Assembly: GCA_016194985.1 (NCBI GenBank)
Contig: JACQAK010000013.1
Span: forward strand, 101,999-165,998
Source: Bacteroidota bacterium
Lineage (GTDB): Bacteria > Bacteroidota > Bacteroidia > B-17B0 > Aurantibacillaceae
DNA length: 64,000 nucleotides
Direction: 5' to 3'
A model generated the notes under the pieces. It saw only the letters and a program-made list of their open reading frames with translations. It made no database searches and had not been told where the DNA came from. Below, piece after piece: positions 14,409 through 20,323 of the stretch; the stretch's first letter is position 1, and each line of letters opens with the position of its first letter. A program made the translations under genes and the position numbers.

Positions 14409-14737
14409 TTTGAAATGGTGCCTGTATTTAATAAAGCATCAAAAACTTGTTATTCTCGAATAACAAGTTTTTTTAATTTAAAAAGCAATTTTGTTTCTTT
14501 TATTCAATTCTTTTAATTAGTCCGTAAATACCCCACAATTTATAAAATCGGCAATCAATTCCTTCACAAATTTACTTTAAACATTAAAGATGTGCTTTTG
14601 TATCGTCCTGAAATAAGTTAACATAAATAACAAAAGCCAAAAATTCCATCGGTATAATTATGTATGCCATGAGACATAATTTATTGTAATATTTTTATTC
14701 AAAAAAGAGTTAAATTGCATACCTTTTTAGAATATTT
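14409..14737. other. Intergenic stretch: terminator plus upstream region
   Basis: This 329-base AT-rich gap holds the terminator at 14443-14474. Near 14716 it holds a TACCTTTT sequence about 20 bases before the next ATG, a loose match to the TANNTTTG -7 box. No reading frame or RNA gene is seen. Confidence 0.5.
14443..14474 (+). terminator. Rho-independent terminator
   Basis: AAACTTGTTATTC and GAATAACAAGTTT form a near-perfect 13-bp inverted repeat, followed by a run of T. It lies 35 bases after the T9SS substrate gene and ends its transcript. Confidence 0.8.
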
Positions 14738-15085
14738 ATGGAAAACTTAATCATCAACAGAAAGCAAATTAGTTTAGAAAAAAACAAGGAATTCTCTTTT
14801 AAAATCCCTGTTTTATTTACCCCGATAGAATGTGAATTTATACTTGATAGAACAGACAATGAAACCGATGAAGAAGTTGTTGTGGTGTTTAAATTAAAAT
14901 GCACGAAAAGCGGATCAGAAAGCGAAAATAAACAACTTTCAGTTCAGGTGATTGAAAGAACAACCAGTTCATCACTTAAATACTTGGATTTACAAGGAGA
15001 ATTTTTACTTCTAAGTTGTACTGCAAATAAAAACATACAATTTGCCTTTAGTATCAGAAGAAATTTTTCAAGAACGATTATTTAA
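14738..15085 (+). CDS. Hypothetical protein
   Basis: A 115-residue cytosolic protein with no signal peptide or membrane segment. It is predicted to be mostly beta strand, with an acidic loop (TDNETDEEVVVV) in the middle. No family is recognised. Its stop codon overlaps that of the convergent histidine kinase gene by four bases. Gene status rests on a complete ATG frame and a plausible upstream region. Confidence 0.6.
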   Translation: MENLIINRKQISLEKNKEFSFKIPVLFTPIECEFILDRTDNETDEEVVVVFKLKCTKSGSESENKQLSVQVIERTTSSSLKYLDLQGEFLLLSCTANKNIQFAFSIRRNFSRTII

Positions 15086-15870
15086 ATTTTATTTTTTCTT
15101 TTAAACTCAATGGAAATGGTAGTTCCACTATTTTCATCGCTACGAAGAATAATCAACCCTTTATTTATTTCAACGATTTTTTTTATAATCGCTAAACCTA
15201 ATCCTGTAGTTGGTTCATTTTCAGTCCCCAATCTTTTAGCATTTGAATATGGCAGAAACAATTCTTTTTGCAATGTTGCCGGAATGCCTATCCCCGAATC
15301 CGTAATTTCAATAACAACACTGTTACTTAATGCATGGAGCTTCACTTGTATAAACCCTTTTCGAAGAGTAAACTTTATTGCATTCGAAAGTAAATTATCA
15401 ATAACTCTTTTAATATCATCGGGATTTACAAAACAAAAATTATCTTCGGAAGGTATGGATAGATTTATTTCAATGTCTTTGCTTTTGGCTAATAAATAGT
15501 GAATTTGAGATTGATGTTTTACCAGATCATTTATTGAAATCCATGCACAAGTTTGACTATAATTCTTTTTTTGATTTAGTTTATCATTGAAAATAAAATC
15601 ATTGAGCATATTATTTCCTTGCTCACATACGGTATTGATCATCCTGCTGAATTCATGGAGGTCGGAAGCAGGTTGATGGGCTAATTTTACGGCAAGTAAA
15701 GAATTCAAACCCGAAATTTTTGCGATTAATCCTTTTAAGTCATGCGCTACATGGTAAATACTTAACCCTTCTTTCCTTTCTTCTTTGAAGTGCTCCGTGT
15801 GCGATACTTGTCTTTCAATATCATCGATAGTTTTACTACCTACAGCATTATTGATTTCTTTTTTACTCAT
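15082..15870 (-). CDS. Orphan cytosolic sensor histidine kinase
   Basis: The kinase has 262 residues if translation begins at ATG 15870. The frame stays open upstream to 15966, but those 32 codons fall inside a highly structured sequence and do not look like protein. It shows an H-box variant (YHVAHDLKGL, His about 43), an N-box (NLLSNAIKFT), G1 (DSGIGIP) and G2 (TGLGLAI), so it should bind ATP and autophosphorylate. There is no membrane segment and only a short N-terminal region, so the signal is probably cytosolic or comes from a partner. No response regulator is adjacent. A hairpin (15874-15900) and a folded RNA domain (15924-16037) precede it and may control its translation. Confidence 0.85.
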   Translation of the reverse strand: MSKKEINNAVGSKTIDDIERQVSHTEHFKEERKEGLSIYHVAHDLKGLIAKISGLNSLLAVKLAHQPASDLHEFSRMINTVCEQGNNMLNDFIFNDKLNQKKNYSQTCAWISINDLVKHQSQIHYLLAKSKDIEINLSIPSEDNFCFVNPDDIKRVIDNLLSNAIKFTLRKGFIQVKLHALSNSVVIEITDSGIGIPATLQKELFLPYSNAKRLGTENEPTTGLGLAIIKKIVEINKGLIILRSDENSGTTISIEFKRKNKI

Positions 15871-15873
15871 TTT

Positions 15874-15900
15874 GATTTTTTGGATGAACACCAAAAAATC
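15874..15900 (-). promoter_or_regulatory. Hairpin three bases before the kinase start codon
   Basis: On the minus strand GATTTTTTGG, a 7-base loop and CCAAAAAATC form a perfect 10-bp stem ending three bases before ATG 15870. It would bury the A-rich translation start region. No T run follows, so it does not look like a terminator. It could be the expression platform of the RNA domain just upstream (inference). Confidence 0.5.
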
Positions 15901-15923
15901 AGCGCAGGCTAATTGTAATACTT

Positions 15924-16037
15924 GTATTCTGCGGGAGTCGAAGCCCGTACCTACAAAATAAAACAACGCCCACGCCTTCCCGTGAACGTTACTAAATTCC
16001 CCTGTAGGTATTGTGAATTTTCGACTTTTCAGAATAC
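15924..16037 (-). ncRNA. Candidate structured leader RNA (three-way junction with pseudoknot)
   Basis: Nested perfect complements are visible. P1 pairs 15924-15931 with 16030-16037 (8 bp). P2 pairs 15948-15955 with 16003-16010 (8 bp). P3 pairs 15965-15974 with 15981-15990 (10 bp with two G-U pairs when read on the minus strand, loop GGAAGG). A short hairpin has stem 15932-15935/15944-15947 (CGGG/CCCG) and an 8-base loop. Seven loop bases (UUCGACU) are complementary to AGUCGAA in the junction strand (16020-16026), giving a pseudoknot. Hairpin, P2 and P1 abut without spacers, favouring stacking. The minus orientation is preferred because the kinase gene follows and G-U pairs fit it. I do not recognise the family; tmRNA and tRNA do not fit. 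Confidence 0.55.
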
Positions 16038-16260
16038 AGAATAATTTAAGAAACGCTAATTTTTATATGTTGTGATTAATAGTTATGCCATAGATTTATT
16101 TTTGTTATTGTACACAGCAAATATAAGATTTTTGGGCATAAGTTTCTCGTCCCTCCGAATAACAATTTGAAAAACAATTGTTTAGGGAAGATTAAGAATG
16201 TAATTTTTTAATGAAATTTATCTCCGACTACGTTTTAATTAAATAGAGATAATTTTCATT

Positions 16261-16458
16261 TTATTCCCCCGGTAATCCTAACTTATCAAATATGTATTTT
16301 ACTTGTTTGGGATTGTAATACCAACCATATCGTTTGCCTAAATCTTCTTTGAAAGGCTCCAACCATGTGGTCATAGAGCGTACTCCAATTTTGTACAAGT
16401 CTGCTAATTCTTTTTTCGAATAAGGCTTAATTTCTAACACTTCATTTTTTTCTTTCAT
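16261..16458 (-). CDS. Small helix-turn-helix DNA-binding protein
   Basis: The 65-residue protein carries a helix-turn-helix core (PYSKKELADLYKIGVRSMTT, then WLEPF) followed by YYNPKQVKYIFDKLGLPGE. This layout resembles short DNA-binding proteins common in Bacteroidota phages and integrative elements, which act as excisionase-like or repressor proteins (from memory). It diverges from the small-gene cluster at 16848, with the repeat-rich region between them, so it may bind those repeats. It marks the left side of the recombinase island. Confidence 0.65.
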   Translation of the reverse strand: MKEKNEVLEIKPYSKKELADLYKIGVRSMTTWLEPFKEDLGKRYGWYYNPKQVKYIFDKLGLPGE

Positions 16459-16557
16459 ATCCGGGTAGGACGTTAGAGCTATAAATCCGTTGCGTTTTTT
16501 CTGCTAAATACTGTTAAGGTTTATACCCTTTTCGAGCATCTAAGTTGGTTTTCAGTC

Positions 16558-16656
16558 AACGAGAGTTAACGAAACGCAATAAGAGTGAACGAGAGTGATC
16601 CATTTCAATCGAGTAAGCATATCGATCAATAATATAACATATGAGTTAACGAAACG
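16558..16656. repeat. Direct repeats, possible operator or replication sites
   Basis: GAGTTAACGAAACG occurs at 16563-16576 and again, exactly 80 bases on, at 16643-16656. AACGAGAGT occurs at 16558-16566 and 16588-16596 (30 bases apart). A CAACTT-TCGG-AAGTTG hairpin follows at 16658-16673. The spacings are close to whole helical turns (80 and 30), as for binding sites of one protein. The 16459-16847 gap has no convincing gene. Confidence 0.55.
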
Positions 16657-16729
16657 ACAACTTTCGGAAGTTGCCAAAAAAGAGTAGTTGAGATTTGTAC
16701 CGTAAACTACTATAAGAGCATTTAAAAAA

Positions 16730-16809
16730 TATGCGATAAAATATACTCTTATTGACGATGAAAAATTAAACAAGAATAGAATATGCGGTAAAATATGCGC
16801 TAAATATAC
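16730..16809. repeat. Iteron-like repeats TATGCGnTAAA
   Basis: Three copies of TATGCGnTAAA are seen at about 16730, 16782 and 16794. The first and last extend into the AT-rich ATATAC. They lie directly before the small-gene cluster at 16848 and could be protein-binding sites for its promoter or for replication or excision. Confidence 0.5.
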
Positions 16810-16836
16810 AGTAACTGATTATAAACATGTAAAAAA

Positions 16837-16843
16837 AGGAGGA
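16837..16843 (+). promoter_or_regulatory. Strong Shine-Dalgarno (AAGGAGG)
   Basis: A full AAGGAGG stands four bases before ATG 16848. Almost no other gene in the window has one, which fits foreign origin of the island and fixes the start of this gene. Confidence 0.75.
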
Positions 16844-16847
16844 CAAG

Positions 16848-17270
16848 ATGAGTAATACAACTGAAAACAAAGAGCAAACACAGCAAAACAAAGATAAAAA
16901 AACAGAAGAACCGAAAGATTGGTTGGAACTAATTCAAGATTTTATAAAAAACCCGGTTACAACCGGAATAACAGGACTCGCTGCCGGATATCTTTTAGGA
17001 ACATATAAAGCAAGTAAAGATATAGAAGCCATAAAAGCGGAGCATAAAGAACAAATGAAAGAACAGAATGATTTATTTAAACTCTTAGTAAAAGAAATAA
17101 GAGTTAACAATAAACTTTTGGCTTCAAAACAACACCAAGCATTACTATCCGCTGAAGATGAAAGCGATGATGAAGATGGCAACACACTTGAGATGGTAGA
17201 AGACGCAAAATCCAAAGTATATAATTACAAGCCTAAAACAAAAAAAAGAATATTTGAATTTAAAGCATAG
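16848..17270 (+). CDS. Small single-pass membrane protein of the recombinase island
   Basis: The 140-residue protein has a polar N-terminus (Gln/Lys/Glu-rich), a Gly-rich hydrophobic segment (NPVTTGITGLAAGYLLGTY, about 36-54) that could span the membrane, a Lys/Glu coiled-coil stretch (about 55-95), an acidic patch (AEDESDDEDG) and a basic tail. No family is recognised. The start is fixed by a strong AAGGAGG. The next gene begins 14 bases downstream after a weaker AGGAG, so they form one unit. Function unknown. Confidence 0.7.
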   Translation: MSNTTENKEQTQQNKDKKTEEPKDWLELIQDFIKNPVTTGITGLAAGYLLGTYKASKDIEAIKAEHKEQMKEQNDLFKLLVKEIRVNNKLLASKQHQALLSAEDESDDEDGNTLEMVEDAKSKVYNYKPKTKKRIFEFKA

Positions 17271-17284
17271 GAGAATAAAAGCAA

Positions 17285-17545
17285 ATGAAAACCACAACAG
17301 AAAAACAACACATAAAAATTCCGATTGAATTATTTTTAGATGTCTGCAAAATGATCCGCACTGGAAATTTAAATAATAAAATAACCGGAAGCAATGAAGC
17401 AACAGGAGAAGTGCTATTGGAATTATCCTTTTCAAAAGGAAATAAAATTCAAAATGATGCGCTACAAAACATTTATGAATCTGTGAGTGAATGGAACGAA
17501 CAGCGATATGGAGATGAAAATCCGGATGAGATCGCGCTTAATTAA
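17285..17545 (+). CDS. Hypothetical island protein
   Basis: An 86-residue soluble, acidic protein without signal or membrane segment, predicted mixed alpha/beta, with no known motif. AGGAG lies about 10 bases before the ATG. It sits in the same-direction run of small genes leading to the serine recombinase, so it is probably an accessory gene of the mobile element. Function unknown. Confidence 0.65.
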   Translation: MKTTTEKQHIKIPIELFLDVCKMIRTGNLNNKITGSNEATGEVLLELSFSKGNKIQNDALQNIYESVSEWNEQRYGDENPDEIALN

Positions 17546-17574
17546 TGGAAATAAATATTTTAAAATAAAACAAA

Positions 17575-18306
17575 ATGAACTGTTTATATTGCAATAAACC
17601 CATAGAAGGAAAACGAAACACAAAAAGGTATTGTGGTAATACCTGCAAACAATACGCCTACTTAAAAAGAAGTTTTTCTATTCCTTCAGATAGTCTTTCG
17701 ATATCACTAAGTGAGCCTGAAAATTCATCGAACCCCAAGGAACATTTTCAAAATATAAATAACACTTACAACAAACCAACAGCACAGCATGTATATAGAA
17801 AACAAGTAACTCAACAGGAGTACCAATATATTAATGCTGATATTTTGGATCGGATTCAAGGCGGGTATGTTTCCTTAACTATAACAAGCGATTATTTTAC
17901 AAATCAAAACACTTCTGCATTTGCGTATATCATACCACGGATTCGATGCATTATCGAAAATCTATTTCAGTTAAGTTATAAAAGAAAGCTATATTATAAA
18001 ACAGCCATCACCATTTGTAGAGCTGTTGAAGAAATGCTTTTACCGGAACATATTGGTCAGCTACCTTGTGATTTTCCTTTTTTGGAAGATCTTAAAAAAA
18101 TGCGAGAACAGTTTATTCCGATGGCAAACTATTTAAAAGAGGATAAAGAAGGAGTTAAATTTCGGTTGACAAAGTCTGTAATTGTCAGGTATATTCTTAT
18201 TCTAAACCTTCTCAGAAATTGCACTAAAAAGGAGCCGTTTATGGTATTATTCCCTGAATTATACAAATCCAACACCCCTGCAAAGCCCAACACAGTAGCG
18301 GCTTAG
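17575..18306 (+). CDS. Island protein with N-terminal zinc-finger motif
   Basis: The 243-residue protein begins MNCLYCNKPIEGKRNTKRYC, followed by GNTCKQYAYLK, giving a CxxC-x14-CxxxC zinc-finger pattern within the first 30 residues. A Ser/Asn-rich linker (about 35-75) and a mostly helical domain (about 85-230) follow. It could bind DNA or RNA, but the helical part has no recognised family. It lies between small unknown genes and the recombinase, all on the plus strand, so it probably belongs to the element, perhaps in control of excision or maintenance (inference). Confidence 0.7.
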   Translation: MNCLYCNKPIEGKRNTKRYCGNTCKQYAYLKRSFSIPSDSLSISLSEPENSSNPKEHFQNINNTYNKPTAQHVYRKQVTQQEYQYINADILDRIQGGYVSLTITSDYFTNQNTSAFAYIIPRIRCIIENLFQLSYKRKLYYKTAITICRAVEEMLLPEHIGQLPCDFPFLEDLKKMREQFIPMANYLKEDKEGVKFRLTKSVIVRYILILNLLRNCTKKEPFMVLFPELYKSNTPAKPNTVAA

Positions 18307-18345
18307 CCCGACTTTTATGTGTGGAACTAATTGTTTAACTTAGCT

Positions 18346-18606
18346 ATGAAACACCAAATGAAAGAAAACGAAACAACTGAAATTGAAAATGAGAATAAAA
18401 ATATACTTACGCTTGAAAAGGCAAGAGAACTTTTAGGAGAGAATGATATAAGTGATGAAAAACTGGAGATGATAATTAGTAATATAAAAGTATTTTGTAA
18501 AGTAGCCTATGAAATGTATTGCGAAGAACAGAATAAAAAAATGGATAATGAACAAGATACTATAATTGAACTTCATTCAAATCAAGAATTAAAAGAAGCT
18601 GCATAA
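18346..18606 (+). CDS. Small acidic helical protein
   Basis: About 86 residues if it begins at ATG 18346; an upstream in-frame TTG at 18331 is less likely. It is rich in Glu/Lys/Asn and fully helical in appearance, with no motif recognised. It ends 43 bases before the serine recombinase and may be co-transcribed with it. A small regulator or directionality factor is possible by position only. Confidence 0.55.
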   Translation: MKHQMKENETTEIENENKNILTLEKARELLGENDISDEKLEMIISNIKVFCKVAYEMYCEEQNKKMDNEQDTIIELHSNQELKEAA

Positions 18607-18649
18607 TTAAATAAAAAAAGAATAACAGAAATTAAAAGCAAATAAAAAT

Positions 18650-20215
18650 ATGTCAGACGATAATCAATTATTTAAAATGTTTTCAAAGGGAAAAAAGAAT
18701 ATCCGCTTTGAAAATGACGACTGTGTTATTTACACCCGTGTATCAGGAGCCAAACAATTAGATGGCTTGAGTCTTGAAACTCAACTAAAGGGCAACGAAG
18801 AATATGCCAAGAGACATAAGCTCATCGTGCGTGAACGGTTTGGTGGTACGTATGAAAGTGCTGCTACCGATGAGAGAAAAGAATTTCAACGGATGATTAA
18901 ATACATTAAAACATCAAAGCATAAGATTTCAAAAATACTTGTTTATAGCTTAGAGCGATTTTCACGAAGCGAAAATTCTATTTGGTTAAGTGGTCAGCTA
19001 AGAAAATTGGGGACAGAGATTGTCTCGGTCACACAACCAATTGATACTACAAACCCTGCTGGAATTATGCAACAAAAAATGTTGTTTCTATTTGGAGAAT
19101 TTGATAATCAACTCCGAAGACAAAAAAGTATGGCGGGTGTAAAAGAACGATTACTTAAAGGAGAATGGTGCACGAAGCCTCCCATCGGATATGATATACT
19201 GAGAACCAATGGAGAGAAGAAAATTATTTTAAATGAAAAAAGTAAAATCATTAAAAAGATGTTTGTGTGGAAAGCAGAAGAACGCTTACCTAATGAACAA
19301 ATCAGAAAACGTCTTGCAAATTTAAATTACAATTATGACCTCAGAAGAATCTCTGAAATATTACGAAACCCATTCTATTGTGGCATTATGGTTCACAAGG
19401 CTTTAGAGGGAGATGTATTGGAAGGTAAGCATGAAAAGCTGATCACTAAAAATATGTTTTTGCAAGTCAACGGAATATTAAATGAAAAGAAACTCGGTTT
19501 ACAAACTCGAAAAGAACGAAAAGAAATTGCATTAAAACGTTTTGCACTATGTGAAGCCTGTTATCAACCAATGAGGGGATATATTGCCAATAGCTGTGAT
19601 ACTCCTTATTACAAGTGCAACACACCTAATTGTAAATGCAACCGTAATGCAGATATAGTAAATACCAAATTTGAAAACCTAATAGCAGGCTATAAAACTA
19701 ACGTCATTTACGATAAATTAATTCATCAGCAATTAAAATACACTTTTACCCAAATGAATGCCTCCACCGAGGAGAATCAAGCCTCAGCAAAGGCTAAAAC
19801 AGCCGATTTAAGCCATAATTTGGAGCGTTTGGAGGAACGGTTTATCCTTGAGGAGATAACGGGCGAACTTTACCAAAAATACAAAACCAAGTTTGAAAAG
19901 GAAAGGGACGAAATTGAGCTACAAATCAGTAAAAACAAAATTGAGATGTCGAAGTTGGATGGCTACATCAACTACACGTTGAATCTTTCCCTAAACCTTC
20001 GTAAAATGTGGGCTTCCGGGGATTATACTCAGCGACAGGAACTGCAAAACACCTTCTTTCCCAAAGGAATTACCTATAATCGGCAAAAAGACGAATGTCG
20101 AACTATAGAAACCAACGAATTTTTAGAAGAAGTCTCTGATTTATCAGGGACTTTTGCTACTTTTAGCCCGACTCAATTACAAAACTTTAAACCCAGTCCG
20201 AGTTGGGCAGGCTGA
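18650..20215 (+). CDS. Large serine recombinase (site-specific integrase)
   Basis: The 521-residue enzyme has a resolvase-type catalytic domain (about 24-165) with YTRVS (nucleophile Ser32), LERFSR (Arg103, Arg106) and FGEFDNQLRRQKS. A recombinase domain (about 175-285, KPPIGYD then LRNPFYCG) follows, then a zinc ribbon with Cys301, Cys304, Cys323 and Cys328 or Cys330, a coiled coil (about 365-450) and a short tail. Such enzymes integrate and excise elements at attP/attB sites through a Ser-DNA link. The stop codon lies inside a REP-like palindrome (20213-20254), suggesting an element boundary here or a replaced C-terminal tail. It drives the small island at 16261-20215. Confidence 0.92.
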   Translation: MSDDNQLFKMFSKGKKNIRFENDDCVIYTRVSGAKQLDGLSLETQLKGNEEYAKRHKLIVRERFGGTYESAATDERKEFQRMIKYIKTSKHKISKILVYSLERFSRSENSIWLSGQLRKLGTEIVSVTQPIDTTNPAGIMQQKMLFLFGEFDNQLRRQKSMAGVKERLLKGEWCTKPPIGYDILRTNGEKKIILNEKSKIIKKMFVWKAEERLPNEQIRKRLANLNYNYDLRRISEILRNPFYCGIMVHKALEGDVLEGKHEKLITKNMFLQVNGILNEKKLGLQTRKERKEIALKRFALCEACYQPMRGYIANSCDTPYYKCNTPNCKCNRNADIVNTKFENLIAGYKTNVIYDKLIHQQLKYTFTQMNASTEENQASAKAKTADLSHNLERLEERFILEEITGELYQKYKTKFEKERDEIELQISKNKIEMSKLDGYINYTLNLSLNLRKMWASGDYTQRQELQNTFFPKGITYNRQKDECRTIETNEFLEEVSDLSGTFATFSPTQLQNFKPSPSWAG

Positions 20216-20254
20216 GCGGAGTCGAAGCCTTCATAAACCCTTCGACTCCGCTCA
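20213..20254. repeat. REP-like palindrome
   Basis: TGAGCGGAGTCGAAG (20213-20227) and CTTCGACTCCGCTCA (20240-20254) are perfect inverted repeats around a 12-base loop. The first three bases are the stop codon of the recombinase. It belongs to the same family as the copies at 30333-30440 and 36837-36860 (shared core GAGCG[G/T]AGTCGA). Confidence 0.8.
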
Positions 20255-20323
20255 GGGAGACAAGATTTTCTTTTCTCACATGGCAGACGATTCTATACAC
20301 ATATGGAACAAATTATAAAAAAC

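Follow-up and report, generated by a model that had tools for sequence, protein, structure and literature searches.

A structured stretch of DNA directly 5' of an orphan histidine kinase gene raises the question of which molecule it encodes and whether this molecule serves the kinase in particular. The window analyzed here, 64,000 nucleotides of a genome of the Aurantibacillaceae (Bacteroidota), carries the kinase gene (262 aa) at positions 15082..15870 of the minus strand, and Pfam recognizes the catalytic domain alone (HATPase_c, 7e-22). A preliminary description had proposed an undescribed leader RNA with riboswitch-like layout, in which the start region of the kinase is masked by a hairpin. 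Our analysis argues for a cis-acting leader RNA that probably works as a riboswitch-like transcription attenuator and stands in front of many genes besides this kinase.

Architecture and strand of the leader element

On the minus strand, covariance model R1 has a match at 15896..16060 which covers the full model (1-164 of 164; 146.8 bits, E 2e-35); the training set of R1 includes the window sequence itself, and homologues were found independently by blastn at E values of 1e-83 to 1e-4. The helices P1, P2, P3 and P4 as well as the pseudoknot lie exactly where the preliminary description had placed them. Helix P1 (9 bp) pairs UGUAUUCUG at 16038-16030 with CAGAAUACA at 15931-15923, P2 is formed by 16010-16000 and 15958-15948, and P4 is a hairpin of 10 bp including G-U (AACGUUCACG 15990-15981, CGUGGGCGUU 15974-15965). 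The short hairpin P3 (4 bp; CGGG-CUUCGACU-CCCG, 15947-15932, with 15947-15944 pairing to 15935-15932) exposes in its loop the 3' strand of the pseudoknot PK1, i.e., UUCGACU at 15942-15936, which matches AGUCGAA at 16026-16020 in seven perfect base pairs.

Further parts had not been part of that description. These are the outer helix P0 (7 bp; AUUAGCG 16060-16054, CGCUGAU 15904-15898), the promoter-like -7 element TATATTTG at 16118..16125 of the minus strand, and an alternative helix T, which pairs GCGUGGGC at 15975-15968 with GCCUGCGC at 15909-15902. The 5' strand of T consists of bases of the P4 3' strand plus G15975, so that P4 and T are mutually exclusive, since both use the same middle strand; the 3' strand of T (15902..15909) in turn overlaps the 3' strand of P0 and is immediately followed by the run UUUUUU at 15893..15898. 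The claimed perfect 10-bp hairpin in front of the kinase is likewise present (GAUUUUUUGG-UGUUCAU-CCAAAAAAUC; 15900-15891 with 15883-15874), three bases 5' of the ATG at 15870, and absorbs the U-run together with part of the P0 strand.

Base-pairing of this regularity had been judged not to arise by chance, which the shuffling experiments bear out. A parser searching for the whole layout (P1, P2, the P3 hairpin and the pseudoknot joining the P3 loop to the P1/P2 junction) scored the window at 71.4, and none of 3,000 dinucleotide shuffles reached this value (mean 40.5, maximum 65.8). The minimum free energy of the minus strand was -59.8 kcal/mol (z -5.6; 0/200 shuffles as stable). Because the plus strand also folds well (z -5.0; again 0/200), the strand was decided from homologues: on the minus strand of 112 members, 155 alignment cells hold G-U and 17 hold A-C, an excess which identifies the RNA of the minus strand as the functional molecule.

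The same strand carries the promoter-like motif. The sequence TAnnTTTG, the flavobacterial -7 promoter consensus (PMC9723704), is present on the RNA strand in the 120 nt preceding P1 in 82 of the 112 members, vs 12 of 112 on the opposite strand. In the order of the window, a start codon follows 7-59 nt 3' of the element on the same strand in 39 of 45 members (28 nt for the window kinase by the same measure), with distances clustering at 7-33 and 44-59 nt. Such distances leave no room for another promoter outside the element, so that the gene must be read through it; at sequence level, the element therefore has the upstream promoter motif and same-strand position 5' of a gene expected of a leader.

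Covariation and spread across Bacteroidota

Homologues were searched at several taxonomic levels, the order-level counts referring to 87 genomes which all belong to the window's own family. Here, blastn found matches in 16 genomes (E 1e-83 to 1e-4, the weakest ones short), some with two copies, and a covariance model built from 15 of these homologues detected the element in 37 of the 87 genomes (E up to 0.1), with up to five copies per genome, nearly all of them full length. A second model from 45 members yielded 56 of 395 phylum-wide genomes, with 7 candidates scored per genome, and 12 of 40 class representatives, with 72 candidates scored per genome. One Bacteroides genome holds 12 copies. 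The exact pattern of one pseudoknot variant was present in at least 118 stretches of the named-genome collection; the matches listed stem almost all from Bacteroidota (e.g., Flavobacterium, Chryseobacterium, Maribacter, Mucilaginibacter, Bacteroides and Parabacteroides), and three of them are metagenome bins labelled otherwise. Among plasmids there was one weak match, in Rhizosphaericola mali, and a phage origin was discarded, as the phage collection gave no match and the pattern occurred in only two viral contigs.

Within the family, the closest comparison is locus L030 of another genus, which has in common with the window a block at 14697..16135 (minus strand; 71% identity over 1.5 kb) that takes in the kinase with its promoter and leader and, convergent to it, a 115-aa ORF; the leader by itself is 92% identical. 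The window's genome contains two clear copies, the second of which (L105, G000:C102:2237-2404) parses into the same layout and precedes a single-domain response regulator. This lone receiver-domain protein could possibly be the partner of the orphan kinase.

The preliminary description had named homologues without compensatory changes in P1, P2, P3 or the pseudoknot as evidence that would speak against a leader; what we found is very strong compensatory change in all four, i.e., the conserved secondary structure of a structured cis-regulatory leader. Members scoring below 55 were excluded from the strand-exchange, covariation, promoter, start-distance and energy tests. In the alignment of 45 members, 92.8% of the cells are paired (70.2% after shuffling), 427 cells show a change on both sides (113 after shuffling), and 35 of 45 pairs are changed on both sides; the covariation score is 0.61, compared to at most 0.12 for slid partners. 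PK1 is paired in 100% of the cells with compensatory change in 7/7 pairs, and its strands occur in 49 distinct pairs among 112 members. All eight scored pairs of P1 covary, and both-sided change was seen in 8/10 pairs of P2 and in 4/7 pairs of P0, in which 88% of the cells are paired.

As this alignment was fitted to a model containing P0, P1, PK1, P2 and P4, the independent checks are P3, which the model lacked, and RNAalifold on an unfitted alignment. P3 pairs in 93% of the cells and covaries in two of three pairs (45 members), and RNAalifold on a plain MAFFT alignment recovered P1, PK1, P2 and P4 with compensatory change in 18 of 38 pairs. In an unfitted exchange test, P0 gave low z values, 2.8 within the order and 1.1 elsewhere in the phylum, and outside the order it is weakly supported. 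Judged by its sequence and covariation, the element belongs to a family of predicted pseudoknotted leader RNAs found throughout the Bacteroidota. The original observation was hence right, and the family spreads much further than had been stated, as reflected by the 37 of 87 family genomes and 12 of 40 class representatives.

Competing helices and probable control of the downstream gene

How could such a leader act on the gene behind it? The exchange test, in which the strands of each sequence were swapped with those of other members (2,000 permutations), was read only for T, P4, P0, PK2 and the controls, since the segments of P1, P2, P3 and PK1 had been picked by complementarity. For helix T, own partners gave a score of 28.9 and those of other members 21.8 (z 20.2; 0/2000 permutations), P4 reached a z of 19.6, and control pairings stayed at 0.1-0.3. 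The mean pairing energy of T is -21.4 kcal/mol with its own partner vs -15.5 kcal/mol with that of another sequence, and in the 45-member alignment, where it was unmodelled, 98.4% of its cells are paired with both-sided change in 4/7 pairs. On average, 94% of the middle-strand bases are common to T and P4. The T hairpin is GC-rich (-31.7 kcal/mol on average when taken alone, -28.5 in the window), and at least four U within 12 nt 3' of T were found in 75% of the members, compared to 11% in nearby windows. By sequence, the element thus combines exclusive helices, one of them in a GC-rich hairpin with U-run, as expected for a transcription attenuator.

The RNA would probably start at the TAnnTTTG promoter just 5' of the element and fold as a three-way domain built from P1, P2/P4 and P3, in which a pseudoknot of 7-8 bp ties the P3 loop to the P1/P2 junction. 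Alternatively, the middle strand closing P4 could bind the 3' end of the element, which would give T, the GC-rich hairpin with its U-run. As long as the pseudoknotted domain holds, T would be blocked and RNA polymerase would continue into the gene; should the domain fail to hold or be invaded, T would form and transcription would stop 7-59 nt before the start codon, or farther upstream at SusC loci. The signal tipping this balance could be a small molecule, an ion, a protein or another RNA, and sensing of a metabolite is possible. In the window, the controlled gene would be the orphan histidine kinase, with the single-domain response regulator as its counterpart behind the second copy of the genome. 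In nested energy models, the fold with a free 3' strand is more stable than the one with forced T in 97 of 112 members (-45.8 vs -41.2 in the window), which makes it uncertain which fold is the default and in which direction the leader would switch. The T loop comprises about 50 nt and contains P3, and loops of this size are unusual for an intrinsic terminator. A terminator scan with a loop limit of 8 consequently picks P4 and the U-rich stretch following it, not T.

A different mode of action was implied by the preliminary description, in which the hairpin in front of the ATG masks the start. The riboswitch-like layout was right, but this hairpin turned out to be a local variant: it has a similar counterpart in L030 and L083, other hairpins take its place in most members, and the covarying switch is mainly T against P4. 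More generally, domain and downstream hairpin might open and close the start region, with T as an alternative fold and not a terminator, and the clustering of start codons at 7-33 and 44-59 nt, the hairpins 5' of the ATG in many members (in the window 3 nt before it) and the pairing PK2 all fit such translational control. PK2, formed by the 3' strand with the region or hairpin before the start codon (e.g., in L097, L099 and L102), shows complementarity above chance (z 7.8) and is moderately supported, and we do not count it as part of the core. Start regions of Bacteroidota lack a Shine-Dalgarno sequence. We nonetheless regard control of translation as unlikely, given the enrichment of the U-run behind T, the position of the SusC starts at least 250 nt away and a downstream hairpin conserved neither in sequence nor in form.

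Somewhat less probable still is that the element is an independent trans-acting sRNA which ends at T and its U-run, its neighbor genes being incidental or partly read through. It has its own promoter and a terminator-like end, and it occurs in several copies per genome, as do the FopS sRNAs of Bacteroides thetaiotaomicron (PMC11697453). In Flavobacteria, moreover, the SusC start lies roughly 250-550 nt beyond the element, which leaves room for a second promoter there and thereby for a short RNA transcribed on its own, and a divergent helix-turn-helix gene accompanies the element. Against this stand the same-strand gene starts 7-59 nt past the element in most members of the window's order and the selection on both P4 and T, as a terminator at the end alone would not need both. 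Control by an upstream peptide from the AUG in AUGUCCCACGCUGAU (MSHADF...) was also considered and discarded, because it is absent from the LamG and kinase groups.

Genes behind the leader and relation to known RNAs

The kinase proved to be one of many genes found behind the leader, and the element is consequently not kinase-specific. In the order, it precedes genes for LamG-type secreted proteins, lipoproteins and a subtilase, restriction-modification genes of types I, III and IIG, and a putative defense gene. Phylum-wide, the 84 first genes scanned included SusC (29), ECF sigma factors (6) and response regulators (5), among others. By sequence reading, several of the 12 copies in the Bacteroides genome stand before DHFR-like enzymes, others before lipoproteins, and further genomes have restriction-modification genes and a response regulator at this place. 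For one copy, a Pfam match bears out the assignment to the DHFR-like family. Such genes recur behind the leader at L301, L305, L306, L307 and L308 of one Bacteroides genome and may possibly hint at its signal. Taken as a whole, the great variety of downstream genes points to no particular ligand.

A short divergent gene lies upstream at 60 of 120 pattern loci (within L142-L248), mostly encoding a helix-turn-helix protein; among the 60 scanned, HTH_26 was found in 39 and HTH_3 in 37 (overlapping sets). These genes are very unlike in sequence, keep a near-constant distance to the leader (about 140-170 nt) and often have SusC/SusD downstream.

In the window, the convergent 115-aa ORF (14738-15085), to which no function was assigned, is conserved next to the kinase in L030. 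On the other side, the leader-kinase block adjoins an element (16261-20215) whose ORFs comprise a DUF4248-like and a zinc-ribbon-like one, small ones and a large serine recombinase, and at the same place L030 has a different set of small ORFs, DUF4248-like ones among them. Directly 3' of the recombinase stop, a perfect 16-bp palindrome is found (20212-20255; CTGAGCGGAGTCGAAG / CTTCGACTCCGCTCAG), whose CTTCGACTCC recurs in the P3 loop, probably by chance. At L097, L099, L112, L115 and L127, an IS1595-like transposase adjoins the leader and small secreted or lipoprotein genes follow, a passenger-gene layout. At L031, L032, L033, L035 and L036, LamG/T9SS secreted genes with the same leader are found at unrelated places, where promoter, leader and both protein termini are about 90% identical and the middle of the gene diverges.

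Surroundings of this kind bear on the alternative, already raised in the preliminary description, that the element is a DNA site: either the terminus of a mobile gene cassette or an end used in recombination or transposition, whose single strand folds. By sequence reading, many loci lie at or in mobile elements with IS1595-like and other transposases, conjugative-element genes or serine recombinases, and near-identical LamG genes with leader at unrelated places would also suit a mobile unit. Yet the strand-specific G-U excess and the promoter on the same strand argue against a DNA site, including an integron attC or a transposon end, and so do the short fixed distance to the start codon and common blocks between loci which reach past the element on both sides, making this reading highly improbable.

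Least probable of all is a guide RNA of the sigma factor and Cas12f/TnpB-like operons which directly follow the element at L177, L185, L209, L210 and L231, as the partner protein was found in none of the 87 order genomes at E 1e-10 (a search without positive control there), at least 34 of which contain the RNA, and as the 3' end is a U-run and not the variable guide that defines such RNAs. In these five loci, the leader is followed by an ECF sigma gene (inspected in L177 and L209, assigned by context in L185, L210 and L231) and a gene of 364-366 aa, with a short divergent gene upstream; the 364-366 aa protein was TnpB/Cas12f-like in the three tested (L177, L209, L210), at scores below the curated cut-off.

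The claim that the element belongs to no described RNA class was upheld within the collections searched. In Rfam 15 (4,227 families including all its riboswitch classes), the element remained unmatched at gathering score in the window and 46 other member loci, where the sole match above this score was a tmRNA elsewhere in L144; sub-threshold matches in the window (isrK, pntA and others) were on the wrong strand or partial and at chance level. Likewise, a tRNA or tmRNA remnant, which the resemblance of the P3 loop to a T-arm had brought up, was dismissed, as neither ARAGORN nor Rfam matched the element and the T-arm-like GGGCUUCGACUCCC varies freely among members. In the open-access papers examined on Bacteroidota RNAs (Flavo-1, Bacteroid-trp, 6S-flavo, FopS), a scope outside of which the 2017 survey of 224 motifs falls, this fold was not found; a prior description outside Rfam is possible.

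The element resembles terminator/antiterminator leaders such as riboswitches and attenuators in its folded 5' domain, its exclusive helices and the GC-rich hairpin with U-run before the gene, but differs in a fold outside all Rfam families and in genes which do not form one pathway. In flavobacteria, the cobalamin riboswitch is the leader of a TonB-dependent transporter gene (PMC9723704) and in this respect comparable, i.e., a leader before outer-membrane transporter genes in the same phylum, whereas no member tested matched the Rfam cobalamin family and the gene set of our element differs. Flavo-1 (RF01705) is also a multi-copy candidate structured RNA of unassigned function, widespread in Flavobacteriaceae, but occurs in sense and antisense positions (PMC9723704), whereas in the order studied the present element has a fixed position ahead of genes; its members gave no cmscan match to Flavo-1 at gathering score or at E up to 1. 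With the FopS/GibS sRNAs of Bacteroides it has in common the phylum, several copies per genome and a link to SusC; FopS sRNAs, however, begin with a single-stranded seed at the 5' end and then form one terminator hairpin (PMC11697453). The present RNA lacks this arrangement: its domain is pseudoknotted, its helices compete, and its genes lie next to it. Bacteroid-trp (RF01692) is an attenuator leader of Bacteroidota as well, but of the leader-peptide type and located before trp genes, in contrast to our element, which contains no conserved open reading frame and has no Rfam match.

A bolder interpretation, which we put forward tentatively, would be a phylum-wide orphan riboswitch class responding to one common signal and gating horizontally carried and surface genes via a pseudoknot-controlled terminator, i.e., restriction-modification systems, sensor kinases and response regulators, SusCD importers, sigma and Cas12f-like operons, DHFR-like enzymes and cargo of mobile elements. 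To our knowledge, no riboswitch class governs that combination of genes. A strongly covarying RNA that roughly one third of the class representatives sampled carry, with up to 12 copies per genome (a small sample, Bacteroides included) and without Rfam family, would constitute a common layer of control on SusCD importers, restriction-modification, two-component proteins and sigma factor plus Cas12f-like operons. With one RNA, many genes and two exclusive helices, it may provide a test bench for a signal broadly used by Bacteroidota, and the element might further serve as a handle for mobile cargo genes.
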